Shown here: in pieces, positions 19,319-24,935 of the stretch | How the letters are laid out: every line of letters begins with the position of its first letter | Position numbering within the stretch: the first letter of the stretch is position 1 | Assembly: GCF_021729015.1 (NCBI RefSeq) | Contig: NZ_JAJQQZ010000001.1 | Coordinates: 620,001 to 684,000, forward strand | Source: Halobacterium rubrum | Lineage (GTDB): Archaea; Halobacteriota; Halobacteria; Halobacteriales; Halobacteriaceae | Reading direction: 5' to 3' | Length of the DNA: 64,000 nt | Notes under the pieces: model-generated | Database searches by the model: none | What the model was told of the DNA's origin: nothing | What the model saw: only the letters and a program-made list of their open reading frames with translations | Program-made: the position numbers and the translations under genes

Positions 19319-19375
19319 CACGGTCGAAAGCGTTCGGGAGTAGGTAGAGGGACCTGCTGTCGAGACCTTTACCGT

Positions 19376-19534
19376 ATGTCGGCAGAGGCAGCGACAGACA
19401 CAGGAGACGACGAACCGTGGCCCCAGCGCCTGCTGGACAACATCTGGTTGCTGGCGCTGGCCGCGATCATCTACTTCGTGGTGTCGTACATCGTGTGGGG
19501 AATGGTCGACCTGGCGACGATTCCCCCGGGGTGA
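19376..19534 (+). CDS. Small subunit of the heme-copper oxidoreductase (CbaD-like)
   Basis: 52 residues: an acidic start (MSAEAATDTGDDEPWPQ) and one membrane span (LLDNIWLLALAAIIYFVVSY). It is the first gene of the operon, seven bases before the CuA subunit. Small single-span subunits of this kind accompany the ba3-type terminal oxidases of haloarchaea and are called CbaD; the assignment rests on size, topology and position. A start at 19376 is the only one that gives a sensible N-terminus. Confidence 0.7.
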   Translation: MSAEAATDTGDDEPWPQRLLDNIWLLALAAIIYFVVSYIVWGMVDLATIPPG

Positions 19535-19541
19535 TTCAGTC

Positions 19542-20513
19542 ATGAGCTCGCCACTCGACGACCCCGACGGCAACTGGTGGGACAGGCAGGTCAACCGCCG
19601 TGAGACCATCTGGCTCGGGCTCTCGGCCGGCTGGGCGGTCAGCCTCTTTGGCTGGATGCTCGGCTGGACGGAGTTCGGCGACCAGAACAACATCGGGGAG
19701 ACCTACGAGATCAGTCCCGAGCGCTTCCAGGAGAAGGTCTCGACGTTCAAGGAAAACGCCGGCACGCTCACCGTAGACGACGAGGAGTACCTCGTCCCGG
19801 ACGGCGAGGACATCTACATCGGCGCGTTCCAGTGGGGCTTCGACGGCCTCCCCGTCGTGGTTCGGCCTAACAAGGAGTACAAGGTCCACCTCGGGACGTA
19901 CGACGTCCAGCACGGCTTCAGCGCGCGCAACGAGTCGAACCTCAGTCAGCAGATCTCTCTCCAGATGATCCCCGGCTACGAGTGGGTCTTGGAGATGTCC
20001 TGGGACGACACCGGCACCTACCAGGTGATCTGCAACGAGTTCTGCGGGAACGGTCACCGGTCGATGCACGGGAAGTACCTCGTGCGCGACCACGAGGAGG
20101 TCGAGACGGGCCCCGACGCCGGTGGCGGCCAGGAAGAATCCGGCCCGTACGGCGGCTGGCTCACGTCCGACAACAACGGTGGCACCGCCGACAACTTCGA
20201 CGATGTCGTCGACGAGACCGGCTCGTCGTCGGTCACAGTCGAGGTCGGCGCGGAGGGCAACGGCGGTCCGTTCGCCAACACGCCCGCCGCGGTCAAGGTC
20301 GAGCAGGGAACCACGGTCAGCTTCGAATGGGTCTCTAACGGCCACAACGTCGTGCTCGAGGACGCCCCCGACGGTAGCGACTGGAGCGGGGTCGAGGCCC
20401 TCAAGAACGAGGGGTACAGCCACGAACACACGTTCGAGACGACCGGCGTCTACAAGTACTACTGTGACCCCCACCTGCAGATGGGGATGAAGGGCGTCGT
20501 GGAGGTGGTCTAG
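19542..20513 (+). CDS. cbaB: Heme-copper oxidoreductase subunit II with CuA site, fused to a halocyanin-like blue-copper domain
   Basis: 323 residues. One membrane anchor (about 23-43). Residues 60-185 form a CuA domain: His124 (VQHGFS), then Cys164-N-Glu166-F-Cys168-x3-His172-x2-Met175, all six CuA ligands. After a Gly/Ser/Asp linker, residues 228-323 form a cupredoxin with type 1 copper ligands His268 (SNGHNVV), Cys308, His311 and Met316 (YYCDPHLQMGM). Halocyanins are the usual soluble electron donors of haloarchaea, so here the donor is tethered to its acceptor. CuA passes electrons to the catalytic subunit encoded next. Subunits of this family normally lack the second domain. Confidence 0.9.
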   Translation: MSSPLDDPDGNWWDRQVNRRETIWLGLSAGWAVSLFGWMLGWTEFGDQNNIGETYEISPERFQEKVSTFKENAGTLTVDDEEYLVPDGEDIYIGAFQWGFDGLPVVVRPNKEYKVHLGTYDVQHGFSARNESNLSQQISLQMIPGYEWVLEMSWDDTGTYQVICNEFCGNGHRSMHGKYLVRDHEEVETGPDAGGGQEESGPYGGWLTSDNNGGTADNFDDVVDETGSSSVTVEVGAEGNGGPFANTPAAVKVEQGTTVSFEWVSNGHNVVLEDAPDGSDWSGVEALKNEGYSHEHTFETTGVYKYYCDPHLQMGMKGVVEVV

Positions 20514-22241
20514 ATGTTCGGAATTAGTCCCTACGAGTACGACGACGACGGCTTCCGTGACTGTAGCGTTACCGGCCTCCGCATCCACAGATCCGCGGAG
20601 GACATGGTGAAACTGTACGGCCTGACGGCCATCGTCGCGCTCGTCGTCGGCGGCATCTTCGCCATCGCAGTGGCGATGACCCGCTGGGAGCTCGTCGGCA
20701 TGCTCGACCCCGGCCAGTTCTACACGTACCTGAGCATGCACGCCTGGAACCTCCTCATCTTCTGGATGGTGTTCATGGAGATCGCCATCCTCTACGTCGG
20801 CGGGCCGTTCGTGCTCGGGCGGCGGCTGTCGCTGCCGTCGCTGGCGAAGGTCGGCTACGGCCTGATGCTCGTCGGCGCCGTCGGCGTCAACGTCGCCATC
20901 TTCCTCACCAAGTCGCCGGACAACGCGCCGCTGCTCACGTCGTACGTGCCGCTGCCGTCGTCCTGGCAGTTCTACCTGTTCGCCATCGTGTTCCTGCTGG
21001 GTGCGGTCGTCGCAGCGCTCCCGTTCTTCGCGACCATCTGGTGGGAGCGCCAGGAGAACCCCGGGAAGACGCTGCCGCTGGTCGCGTTCGGCGCGTTCGT
21101 CACCTCCATCATCGCGCTGGAGGCACTGCTCGGCGGCCTCATCACGTACGTCCCGACGCTCGCCTGGCGGATTGGGGTCCTCGAGAGTCTCGACCCCGTC
21201 TGGTACCGCCAGATGTACTGGATCGTCGGCCACGGCACCCAGCAGATCAACCTCGTGGCGATGATCGTCATCTGGTACTTCCTCACGCACGTACTCGGAG
21301 GCGCGGAGGTCGCCTCCCAGAAGGTCTCGCGCATCGCGTTCGTGATGTACCTCTTCTTCATCAACCTCGGTGCAGCACACCACCTGATGTCCGACCCCGC
21401 AGTCTCCGCGGGCTGGCGGCTCTGGAACACCTCCTACTCCGCGTACGGTGCGGTTATCGCGTCGATGATCCACGCGTTCGCCATCCCCGCCGGCCTCGAA
21501 GCGGGCCGCCGCGCGAAGGGCAAGGGCGGCGGGCTCTTCGGCTGGCTGTGGTCGAGCCCGTGGCGTGACCCCGGGTACTCGGCGACAATCCTCTCTATCA
21601 TCCTGTTCGGGTTCCTCGGCGGCATCACGGGCGTCATGATGGGGCAGATGCAGCTCAACATGACCTGGCACAACACGCTCGCCACGGTCGGGCACTTCCA
21701 CGCGACGGTCGTCCTCGGGACGACGGTCGCCTTCATGGGACTCGCCTACTACGTGCTCCGCCTCGTGTTCGGTCGCGAGTGGGTCCTGAAGCCGCTGGCG
21801 AGGATACAGCCGTTCTTCTACAGCGGGACGATGGCGCTGGTCACGCTCATGATGATGTACCTCGGTCTGCTGTTCAGCGTGCCGCGACGTCACCCGTCGG
21901 TGATGGACATCCCCGGCACGGAGTTCAGCTTCGAGGCCGCGGCACCGTTCTTCGCGGTGTTCGGCATCGCCGCGTTGCTCGCTATCGTCGGCGGTGCGAT
22001 GTTCGTGGTCGTCGCCGTCGGTACCCTGCTGTTCGGTGACGAGTTCGACGCGGCCACTGCGAAGATTGGCGACGTCGGACGGCTCGCTGCCGCAGACGGC
22101 GGCGACGAAGACCACGAGCCGGTGCACGAGCAGAGCATGCGTGGCACGTTCGTGCTCACGCTCGTGTTCCTCGCGACGTTCGTCGTACTCACCGCGCTCA
22201 ACTGGTACCTGCTGTCGAACACCTGGCAGATCGGTCCCTGA
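20514..22241 (+). CDS. cbaA: Heme-copper oxidoreductase catalytic subunit I (ba3/B-type scaffold, Gln at the cross-link Tyr position)
   Basis: 575 residues, about 13-14 membrane spans. Ligands are in place: His76 (SMHAWNLLIFW, low-spin heme), His240 (WIVGHGTQQ, CuB), His289-His290 (GAAHHLMSDP, CuB), His394 (active-site heme) and His396 (low-spin heme) in VGHFHATVV. The scaffold resembles B-type (ba3) enzymes. At position 244, four residues after the CuB His, there is Gln instead of the Tyr that is covalently linked to that His in oxygen reductases. This raises nitric oxide reduction (eNOR-like enzymes) as an alternative to the usual annotation of terminal oxidase. The gene starts at the base after the subunit II stop codon. 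Confidence 0.88.
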   Translation: MFGISPYEYDDDGFRDCSVTGLRIHRSAEDMVKLYGLTAIVALVVGGIFAIAVAMTRWELVGMLDPGQFYTYLSMHAWNLLIFWMVFMEIAILYVGGPFVLGRRLSLPSLAKVGYGLMLVGAVGVNVAIFLTKSPDNAPLLTSYVPLPSSWQFYLFAIVFLLGAVVAALPFFATIWWERQENPGKTLPLVAFGAFVTSIIALEALLGGLITYVPTLAWRIGVLESLDPVWYRQMYWIVGHGTQQINLVAMIVIWYFLTHVLGGAEVASQKVSRIAFVMYLFFINLGAAHHLMSDPAVSAGWRLWNTSYSAYGAVIASMIHAFAIPAGLEAGRRAKGKGGGLFGWLWSSPWRDPGYSATILSIILFGFLGGITGVMMGQMQLNMTWHNTLATVGHFHATVVLGTTVAFMGLAYYVLRLVFGREWVLKPLARIQPFFYSGTMALVTLMMMYLGLLFSVPRRHPSVMDIPGTEFSFEAAAPFFAVFGIAALLAIVGGAMFVVVAVGTLLFGDEFDAATAKIGDVGRLAAADGGDEDHEPVHEQSMRGTFVLTLVFLATFVVLTALNWYLLSNTWQIGP

Positions 22242-22286: not shown

Positions 22287-23336
22287 ATGTACTCCCAACT
22301 GCCCCGGCACCTCTGGTCGCTGGTCAAACCCCGCATCGTCGCGTTGCTGTGCGTGACGGGCGTGTTCGCCGTGTACGCTGCCGGCGGCGCGTCGGCCGCC
22401 ACCGTCGCGTCGTTCGTCGCGGCTGGCGCGCTCGTCGCGGCCGCGTCGGCGGCGTACAACTGCTGGTACGACCGCGAACTCGACCGCCACATGGACCGCA
22501 CCGCCGACCGCCCGCTGCCCAGCGGCGACCTCGACCACCGGGTGGCGTTCGCGTTCGCCACCGCGTTGCTCGTCGCGGGGACGGCAGTCGGGATCGCGTG
22601 GCTGCCGGTGGAGACGGTCGGCTACATGCTCGCGGGCGTCGCGTCGTACGTCCTCGTCTACACCGTCGGCCTGAAGCGCCGGCACTGGCTGGGCGTCGTG
22701 CTCGGCGGGTCCGCCGGGTCGTTCCCCGTGCTCGCCGGCTGGACGGCCGTCCGGCCGCTCTCGACGGAGGCGCTCGTGCTGGCTGCGGTCGTCTTCGTCT
22801 GGACGCCCGCTCACGCGTGGGCGCTGGCACACGTCTACCGCGAGGACTTCACCGCCGCCGGGATTCCGACGCTTCCCGTCGTCGCGTCGGCCCGCCGCGT
22901 CCGGCGCGCGGTCTGGTACTCGGCGGTCGGCACGCTCGTCGTCGCGGCCGCCGCGGTGCCGTTCGCGCCCGCACCCTACGCGACCGTACTCACCGTCGGC
23001 GGCGTCCTCTTCCTGGCTGGCTTCCGCCAGTACCACCGCGAGGGCACCGACGCCGCCGCTGTCCGGGCGTTCTTCACGTCGAACACGTTCCTCGCCATGC
23101 TGTTCGTCGCGTGGGGCGTCGGCGGCGCCACGGGCGGCGTCGGCCCGGTCGGCCAGCTCGCTGCCGCCGGGGGGACCGCCGCGATGTTCGCGTGGCTGTG
23201 GACGGCCCGGCCCGCACTCGACGGCGTCGAGAGCGCGCCCCCAGTGGAGTATCACTGGGTGACCGCTCGCGTCGGGCGGCTGGCGGAATACGTTCGGGAC
23301 AACGCACACTCCCCGCGACCGAGTAAGTCAGACTGA
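22287..23336 (+). CDS. ctaB: Heme O synthase (protoheme IX farnesyltransferase)
   Basis: 349 residues. A UbiA-type prenyltransferase with about nine membrane spans. The first Asp-rich motif reads NCWYDRELDRHMDRTADRPLPSG (N-x3-D-x3-D, near residues 58-80); the second region is near VFVWTPAHAWALAHVYREDF. It adds a farnesyl or geranylgeranyl group to heme B to give heme O, the precursor of the A-type hemes. It lies 45 bases after the catalytic subunit, in line with making the cofactor for it. The C-terminal 50 residues are a soluble extension. The stop codon overlaps the next start. Confidence 0.9.
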   Translation: MYSQLPRHLWSLVKPRIVALLCVTGVFAVYAAGGASAATVASFVAAGALVAAASAAYNCWYDRELDRHMDRTADRPLPSGDLDHRVAFAFATALLVAGTAVGIAWLPVETVGYMLAGVASYVLVYTVGLKRRHWLGVVLGGSAGSFPVLAGWTAVRPLSTEALVLAAVVFVWTPAHAWALAHVYREDFTAAGIPTLPVVASARRVRRAVWYSAVGTLVVAAAAVPFAPAPYATVLTVGGVLFLAGFRQYHREGTDAAAVRAFFTSNTFLAMLFVAWGVGGATGGVGPVGQLAAAGGTAAMFAWLWTARPALDGVESAPPVEYHWVTARVGRLAEYVRDNAHSPRPSKSD

Positions 23337-24091
23337 TGACCGACGAGTCCTCCGCAGGCGCACCGTCGGACGCGTCCGGCGGCAGCAGCGTCGCGTTCTC
23401 CCCTGTCGCCGTCGTCTCGAACGCGTGGTCGGGCCTGAAGACGGTCTACTGGGCGAACTCGCCGAGCTGGCGCGTGATGAAGTCGGGCGCGCTGCTGTTC
23501 CTCGGGTTCTTCCTGTGGGCGGGCTCGAACATCCTGCACTCGTACAACACCGGGATGGACCTGCTGTACTACCCGATGGCGTACGGCTTCCTCCTGATCG
23601 GGTACGGGCCGATACACCACCTCGTCGTCATTCCGCTGGCGGTGCGTTGGCGGCGCAGCGGCGACGGGACCAAGCGGACGCTGGGCCGCCGCGGGCCGAA
23701 CGCGATGCTCGCGGTGTTCCTCGTGGCGGTGCTCGTCCTCGGGGCGTTCCCGGCGGGCGCGATGACCGTCGACTTCGGGAGCGGCGGTGGCGACGGCCCC
23801 GCCGACATCGACCCCGAGCTGTCCTGCGTGAAGACCACCACCACGGGCGACCAGGTCAGCGTCGACTGCGAACTGGAGGCCGTCGACGGCGTCGGACGCA
23901 TCGTCGTCGAGAGTGGCGGCGAGACCATCAGGACGGTCGAAGACCCGCCCTACGAGTTCACCCTCCGGGACGACGACATCGGGTCCGTGATGGGCGAAGA
24001 GCAATTCACGGTCCGCCTCGAGGACGACGAGGGACACTTCGTCCGGCGGTACACGCGCCGCCTCGCCGTCGTTCCCGAGGCGGAGGAGTAA
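23336..24091 (+). CDS. Membrane protein of the oxidase cluster, unknown function
   Basis: 251 residues. The ATG overlaps the TGA of ctaB. A cytoplasmic N-terminus, two or three spans (SGALLFLGFFLWAGSNIL, LLYYPMAYGFLLIGYGP, NAMLAVFLVAVLVLGAFPAG) and an extracellular beta domain (about 150-250) with two cysteines (ELSCVKTTTT, VSVDCELEAV). The outer domain is probably a small immunoglobulin-like fold. Close coupling with ctaB suggests a role in assembly or function of the oxidoreductase, but I do not recognise the family. Confidence 0.65.
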   Translation: MTDESSAGAPSDASGGSSVAFSPVAVVSNAWSGLKTVYWANSPSWRVMKSGALLFLGFFLWAGSNILHSYNTGMDLLYYPMAYGFLLIGYGPIHHLVVIPLAVRWRRSGDGTKRTLGRRGPNAMLAVFLVAVLVLGAFPAGAMTVDFGSGGGDGPADIDPELSCVKTTTTGDQVSVDCELEAVDGVGRIVVESGGETIRTVEDPPYEFTLRDDDIGSVMGEEQFTVRLEDDEGHFVRRYTRRLAVVPEAEE

Positions 24092-24134
24092 ACTGTCGGA
24101 GCGTTTTTCACCGTGCGTGACGAACGGCGAGGAG

Positions 24135-24935
24135 ATGGCTGACCTGAGGGACATCGGGCTCTCGGAGTACGAAGCGAAAGCCTACCGCGCGCTGCTCCGG
24201 ACCGGCCCGGCAACCGCCAAGGAGTTGTCAGAGGAGAGCGGTGTGCCGATGGGTCGCGTCTACGACGTGCTCGGCAGCATCGAGTCACAGCACCTCGTCC
24301 GCAGTCAGGCCGCCAGCCGGCCGAAGAAGTACGTCGCCGTCGAACCCGAGACGGCCCTCGACCGGCTGCTGGAGGACCGCAAGCGTGAACTCCGCGAGAA
24401 AGCCGACCAGTACGAGACGGTCGTCGACGACCTCACGCGCGAACTCGACGAGCCGAAAGCCCCCGAGGACGGCTTCTGGACGGCCGCAGTCGGCCCCGAC
24501 GCCGCCCTCGACCTCCTGCTGGAGCGCATCGACGCCGCCAGCGACAGCGTCGTCCTCGTCTCCGGTACGCCCGCTTCCGGCTGGGAGCTGGACGACGTCA
24601 GCGGTCGCGTCTTCGGCCGCCTCGAGGCCGCCGTCGACCGAGGTGTCGACGTCTCCGTGCTGCTCTCCGAGGACCTCGCGCGGTCGATTCCCGACGAGGT
24701 CAACGAGCGGTACGCCGAAGTGCTCGCCGACGAACCCGACTACGAGGTGCGGGTCGGCGAGAGCATCGACGGCAACGTCACTATCGTCGACGGCGCCGAG
24801 GTGTGTCTGGAGGTCTCGAACCCCGTCCAGCCCGGCGAAGCGTTCGCCACCATCGACCTGCAGGACACCCAGTTCGCCACCGACGTCCACGCCGCCTTCG
24901 AGGAGAGCTGGACGGACGCTACGACGCTCGGGTAG
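24135..24935 (+). CDS. TrmB-family transcriptional regulator
   Basis: 266 residues. Residues 1-70 form the TrmB winged helix (GLSEYEAKAYRALLRTGPAT, then PMGRVYDVLGSIESQHLV). A short coiled coil (about 85-115) follows, then a phospholipase D-like sensor domain (SDSVVLVSGTPASGWELDD, VDRGVDVSVLLSEDLARSIP, VTIVDGAEVCLEVSNP). TrmB proteins in haloarchaea control sugar and central metabolism. I use the ATG at 24135; a GTG 18 bases upstream is also in frame. Its place after the oxidase cluster does not prove that it controls it. Confidence 0.88.
   Translation: MADLRDIGLSEYEAKAYRALLRTGPATAKELSEESGVPMGRVYDVLGSIESQHLVRSQAASRPKKYVAVEPETALDRLLEDRKRELREKADQYETVVDDLTRELDEPKAPEDGFWTAAVGPDAALDLLLERIDAASDSVVLVSGTPASGWELDDVSGRVFGRLEAAVDRGVDVSVLLSEDLARSIPDEVNERYAEVLADEPDYEVRVGESIDGNVTIVDGAEVCLEVSNPVQPGEAFATIDLQDTQFATDVHAAFEESWTDATTLG

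Follow-up and report, generated by a model that had tools for sequence, protein, structure and literature searches.

A haloarchaeal heme-copper operon with glutamine in place of the cross-linked tyrosine very probably encodes an eNOR-type nitric oxide reductase

A 64,000-nucleotide stretch of Halobacterium rubrum DNA (the window) carries an operon whose catalytic subunit has the six histidine ligands of a heme-copper enzyme and a glutamine at the position of the cross-linked tyrosine. Judging from its sequence and genomic context, we are highly confident that this operon encodes an eNOR-type nitric oxide reductase, which would act in the denitrification or NO detoxification chain of its host. 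Since an eNOR active site is combined with a denitrification operator in front of the operon, the enzyme would most likely produce N2O, a greenhouse gas. The eNOR family itself is already known (Hemp & Gennis 2008; PMC8756737; PMC11388526; PMC12569097) and is listed among four NOR families with biochemical characterization (PMC11388526); members, frequently annotated in error as cytochrome c oxidase, have been reported in Natronomonas and across other Halobacteria (PMC8756737). The present result is a well-supported reannotation, not a new kind of enzyme.

RESULTS

Subunit I carries Gln244 on a B-type scaffold

The reading frame at positions 20514 to 22241 (+ strand) encodes a 575-amino-acid B-type heme-copper subunit I, assigned as the catalytic, eNOR-type subunit with Gln244 for the cross-linked tyrosine on the basis of sequence, alignment, tree, and fold. 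The active-site motif H240-G-T-Q-Q244 lies at 21231 to 21245 (+ strand; codons CAC GGC ACC CAG CAG), where codon 240, CAC, occupies 21231 to 21233; in the translated frame, the motif stands where oxygen reductases have H-P-x-V-Y. All six histidine ligands (residues 76, 240, 289, 290, 394, and 396) were found in the translation and in the alignment. The best PDB sequence match was the Thermus ba3 oxidase (E value of about 1e-35), and a structural model based on the window sequence and 42 relatives (pLDDT 79, pTM 0.83) again gave ba3 as its best fold match; no solved eNOR structure was among the PDB and fold matches listed for subunit I. An earlier sequence-only reading had claimed this histidine set, the H240-G-T-Q-Q244 motif, and a B-type (ba3) scaffold, and results confirmed all three.

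In the literature, eNOR is recognized by the replacement of the cross-linked tyrosine by glutamine (PMC8756737). Here Gln244 occupies that position, with subunit II encoded immediately upstream of subunit I, as expected of an eNOR. B-type oxygen reductases have tyrosine at +4 from the CuB histidine, where this protein has Gln244. The bNOR (CuANOR) enzymes pair a CuA subunit with asparagine at the tyrosine position (PMC8756737, Table A4); a CuA subunit is present here, but the residue is glutamine. In qNOR and cNOR, electrons enter through a single fused chain or through a heme c subunit; this operon has a CuA/halocyanin subunit II instead.

The glutamine is invariant in a separate clade

Across 72 distinct aligned relatives (59 to 100% identity), Q243, Q244, I245, N246, and L247 were invariant, and four distant bacterial relatives (Thermus, Thermomicrobium, and Defluviimonas; 40 to 43% identity) kept Q243, Q244, and N246. 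In the clade motif, GHG[ST]QQINL, the proline at +1 and the valine at +3 are replaced as well, and E89, Y308, and H320 are further clade-specific invariant residues of subunit I. Tyrosine at +4 was present in nine of nine sampled haloarchaeal ba3 enzymes (about 30% identity), in Thermus ba3, and in the A-type enzyme of this genome. Because the glutamine is invariant in all 76 sequences of the clade, chance and sequencing error were rejected as its source; a decayed oxidase was likewise rejected, as all ligands, the open reading frame, and the operon are conserved, and a frameshift-like copy appeared only in locus L085. A single retained proton channel is predicted for eNOR. In the alignments, Y255 and S317 of a K-type path are conserved together with E21 of subunit II, while the threonine of this path is changed to H320 and its second tyrosine to isoleucine or valine (I251 here).

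A maximum likelihood tree, obtained by a quick search with long branches flagged, separated the 76 Gln sequences from the Tyr-type B enzymes across a long branch (SH-aLRT 100). The Gln clade takes in relatives from Rhodothermus, Thermus, and Thermomicrobium, with Rhodothermus represented only by homologues from Rhodothermus sp. MAG. The sequence from G066, a genome of the host's genus, grouped with that of Halobacterium sp. KA-4, as would be expected for a Halobacterium. An eNOR was reportedly purified from Rhodothermus marinus by Murali et al., in work said to have appeared in PNAS in 2024. The sequence-only reading had proposed such a phylogeny as a check and had named placement inside proven O2 reductases, with a tyrosine supplied from another helix, as an outcome that would refute its eNOR reading; as to placement, the tree gave the opposite result, with the Gln clade apart from the Tyr-bearing B-type oxidases and in the company of Rhodothermus-group relatives.

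Several members of the clade showed peculiarities of their own. Two relatives on Thermus thermophilus plasmids (L095, 6983 to 8662; L096, 6983 to 8665) carry GHFK at the point where HFH stands in all others examined; the lysine replaces the second histidine (396), a ligand of the low-spin heme b, and may give a His/Lys-ligated heme. Annotation and context suggest that these genes are cbcBA, which had already been suspected of NO use (PMC7694296). The Thermus plasmid cbcBA resembles the window's operon in its Gln motif (GHGAQQVNL), CuA subunit, and NO-related neighbors, but it is only 42 to 43% identical and has the lysine at 396; genes adjacent to the Thermus relatives encode a multicopper oxidase, an Rrf2 regulator, and a DUF542 protein. 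Subunit I of the Halobacterium sp. CBA1126 eNOR (L085, 8001 to 9706) matched in two pieces, as from a frameshift, which may reflect disruption of the gene or an error in sequencing. Two eNOR copies were found in one haloarchaeon of family f3 (G207; C1:1664162 and 2570085) and on one Bacteroidota MAG contig (L044/L045).

The operon encodes a CuA-halocyanin subunit and two further membrane proteins

A candidate small subunit, a 52-amino-acid single-helix membrane protein, is encoded at 19376 to 19534 (+ strand; ATG at 19376), and a homologue lies directly 5' of subunit II in nearly all eNOR loci, those of Rhodothermus and Bacteroidota included. Subunit II (19542 to 20513, + strand) consists of a membrane anchor, a CuA domain, and a C-terminal halocyanin (blue copper) domain. 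Its CuA ligands, H124, C164, E166, C168, H172, and M175, are conserved in about 90 homologues, the halocyanin domain scored above the TIGR03102 cutoff, and the best PDB match of the subunit was the CuA domain of Thermus ba3. Fusion of CuA and halocyanin was restricted to one haloarchaeal subclade, that of the window. The gene for heme o synthase (CtaB; 22287 to 23336, + strand; above the TIGR01473 cutoff) lies directly 3' of subunit I, ahead of the last gene of the operon, in many relatives of the window; elsewhere it is upstream or absent.

The last gene (23336 to 24091, + strand) encodes a 251-amino-acid membrane protein, which its conserved neighborhood marks as a candidate fourth subunit or assembly factor. 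The core order of small membrane protein, CuA subunit, subunit I, and 251-amino-acid protein was kept in almost every haloarchaeal, Bacteroidota, or Rhodothermus locus; the neighborhood search did not find the 251-amino-acid gene in locus L083. The protein was modeled with about three transmembrane helices and an Ig/SoxZ-like sandwich (pLDDT 88), and W31, W45, W61, H95, and a cysteine pair, C164 and C178, are invariant. No Pfam family passed for the window protein, although some homologues weakly match a bacterial Ig domain, and PDB and fold searches returned a generic Ig/SoxZ-like match to the outer sandwich domain only. Both this protein and the CuA-halocyanin subunit II belong to the locus, and as a companion of eNOR from haloarchaea to Rhodothermus, the former is a candidate for a new subunit or assembly factor. 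On the 3' side of the operon, at 24117 to 24935, a TrmB-type regulator with a DUF7436 domain is encoded; G126, the nearest relative, retains it as well, and it could act as a local regulator.

A denitrification operator precedes the operon

An exact match to the palindromic operator CGAA-N4-TTCG (CGAAAGCGTTCG) lies at 19325 to 19336, 51 bp 5' of the operon's first ATG. The palindrome recurs at -50/-51 throughout the window's subclade, and many other haloarchaeal eNOR members carry CGAACATGT[GA]CG at about -40 to -62. Among 66 eNOR promoter loci, which include kin and hence are not independent, and whose ancestry was corrected only in part, the palindrome was present between -110 and -13 exactly in 20 and with at most one mismatch in 43, against background rates of 1.1% and 9.8%, respectively, for intervals of the same size. 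The palindrome has the form of a motif, CGAAYATDKTYG, that the denitrification genes of H. mediterranei have in common and whose positions range from -66 to -79 in front of nirK, nor, and nosZ; mutation of the motif lowers nor and nosZ promoter activity, and a similar motif occurs in 83 promoters of that organism (PMC10062603).

Within the genome of the window, the palindrome is also located 5' of nirK and of qNOR. A 14-kb segment surrounding this genome's Tyr-type ba3 contains no exact copy, and no operator was found upstream of its nosZ within the 14 kb examined. The count for the whole 3.07-Mb genome was 122. The surroundings of nirK (L089, G000:C1:1224000-1240000) hold 10 palindromes in 16 kb. 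This segment, with about 8% of all sites but 0.5% of the genome's length, looks like a denitrification regulon island.

eNOR co-occurs with NirK

A survey of 292 Halobacteria genomes (52 eNOR positive, 240 others), which are related and for which ancestry was corrected only in part, revealed NirK in 49 of the 52 eNOR genomes versus 106 of the 240 others (P = 2.6e-12). When only qNOR-negative genomes were considered, NirK was present in 16 of 17 with eNOR and in 19 of 109 without it (P = 8e-10), and shuffling within genera gave 23.9 expected co-occurrences compared to 37 observed (P at most 5e-5). eNOR was thus the sole NOR detected, with no qNOR, in 16 NirK genomes. Physical linkage was also seen: NirK lay within 12 kb of eNOR in at least 16 of 41 genomes, while for Tyr-type ba3 the corresponding figure was at least 1 of 49. 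In 17 named loci from six genera, NirK was found no more than 8 kb from eNOR. NirK linkage of eNOR has likewise been reported for Ardenticatena. Mutual exclusion of eNOR and qNOR was unsupported, with qNOR found in 35 of 52 eNOR genomes versus 131 of 240 others (P = 0.12). Neither eNOR nor qNOR was detected in 19 NirK genomes (e.g., G049, G109, and G198), which may hold another NO sink.

The host itself encodes four heme-copper subunits I, namely an A-type (HPEVY), a B-type (HPVVY, C1:346543), the eNOR, and a qNOR-like enzyme (C3:111402), together with NirK and NosZ. Its NirK is not adjacent to eNOR, the two being located on the same contig at 1,231 kb and 640 kb, respectively. As a qNOR is also present, eNOR is not the only NO route of this host. 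These two points weigh against the eNOR assignment, as does the abundance of the palindrome (122 copies in the genome) and of the similar motif in H. mediterranei (83 promoters).

DISCUSSION

Retention of the B-type scaffold, CuA, and all six histidines could be taken to mean that the enzyme is a true O2 reductase still, in which the tyrosine is dispensable or comes from another helix, as from helix VII in cbb3 enzymes. Y308 and Y311 (helix VIII) and Y279 (helix VII) are indeed invariant in the core clade, and Y308 and Y279 also occur in four of four distant bacterial relatives. However, the cbb3 tyrosine lies six residues before the HH pair, and that position is I283 here; the host already keeps Tyr-bearing A- and B-type oxidases, and O2 reduction would leave the NirK linkage and the denitrification operator unexplained. 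We therefore regard an O2 reductase as highly improbable. A dual-function or NO-detoxifying enzyme, reducing NO and O2 under microoxic conditions and serving NO removal more than respiration, would refine the eNOR assignment and not oppose it. Some O2 chemistry could plausibly persist in an enzyme of B-type descent, eNOR has been noted in one paper to reduce NO under microoxic conditions, and the host's additional qNOR fits such a role, but apart from the ancestral scaffold nothing specific to O2 was found and the tyrosine is consistently lost in the clade; this refinement is somewhat unlikely, with an appreciable chance of being right. Some other nitrogen-oxide reaction, such as the dismutation of NO to N2 and O2 for which divergent heme-copper enzymes have been proposed in the literature, seems extremely unlikely, as the proposed dismutases are qNOR-like, whereas here the electron input by CuA and halocyanin is intact.

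For an eNOR, a menaquinol-cupredoxin pathway would feed electrons into the fused halocyanin domain of subunit II, from which they would pass through CuA and the low-spin heme b to the heme/CuB center of subunit I, where 2 NO would be converted to N2O. The redox tyrosine is the source of the fourth electron in O2 reductases, needed for O-O cleavage and not for N-N bond formation. Its loss from this protein would remove the electron source for O-O cleavage and leave N-N formation possible, and its place may be taken by Gln244 with the clade-specific polar residues Gln243, Asn246, Glu89, and His320. Protons would probably be drawn from the cytoplasm by a remodeled K-type path, which retains Tyr255 and Ser317, has His320 in place of Thr, and lacks the second Tyr. 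Transcription of eNOR is probably induced together with that of nirK and the qNOR gene through their common CGAA-N4-TTCG operator. We also entertain, with slightly less than even confidence, a fuller picture for the haloarchaeal subclade: a four-subunit NO reductase in which the 251-amino-acid protein is a true subunit and the halocyanin donor is covalently built in, under an operator common with nirK and qNOR, and acting as the sole recognized NOR of NirK-bearing species in 16 of the 292 genomes.

The operon and its relatives share with the eNOR family the replacement of Tyr by Gln, the B-type scaffold, a cupredoxin/CuA subunit directly 5', linkage to NirK, annotation as an oxidase, and occurrence in Halobacteria and Rhodothermus-group bacteria. 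The window's subclade is unlike the family at large in its halocyanin-CuA fusion and the heme o synthase gene in the operon. Further differences from the described eNOR are the haloarchaeal denitrification operator and the co-encoded 52- and 251-amino-acid membrane proteins, for which we found no description in connection with eNOR. Compared with ba3 of Thermus thermophilus and the haloarchaeal ba3 encoded by cbaA, the fold, the six histidine ligands, and the CuA subunit are alike, but identity is about 25 to 30%, the Tyr, Pro, and Val of HPxVY are replaced, and the clades are separate. The qNOR (NorZ; C3:111402 in this genome) has the proposed reaction and the operator in common with eNOR, yet it is a single chain without CuA that takes electrons from quinol and has no close sequence relation. 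The active site of qNOR is of the Glu type.

The eNOR assignment that the sequence-only reading had suggested was upheld by the Gln marker, the single Gln clade, the complete CuA subunit upstream, the NirK context, and the operator. Its accompanying remark, that such haloarchaeal operons may be misannotated as ba3 oxidases, applies to the clade of this gene and fails as a general statement, as the common ba3 enzymes, that at C1:346543 included, keep the tyrosine; blanket misannotation was rejected because all sampled ones do so. The ba3 purified from N. pharaonis is encoded by cbaA, a gene distinct from coxA3 (PMC8305020), and the widespread Tyr-type ba3 is therefore not to be renamed. As far as the sequences indicate, it is only the Gln clade that needs renaming. 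In public records, its bacterial relatives bear the name "cbb3-type cytochrome c oxidase subunit I" and are assigned to aerobic respiration.

In haloarchaeal denitrification, qNOR has been stated to be the only NO reductase (PMC8400030). By our survey, eNOR would be present in roughly one in six of the Halobacteria sampled, in most cases alongside NirK. Where eNOR is read as an oxidase, both the N2O potential of these organisms and the number of genomes with NirK and no NOR would be misjudged. The common operator makes the claim directly testable in culturable haloarchaea.
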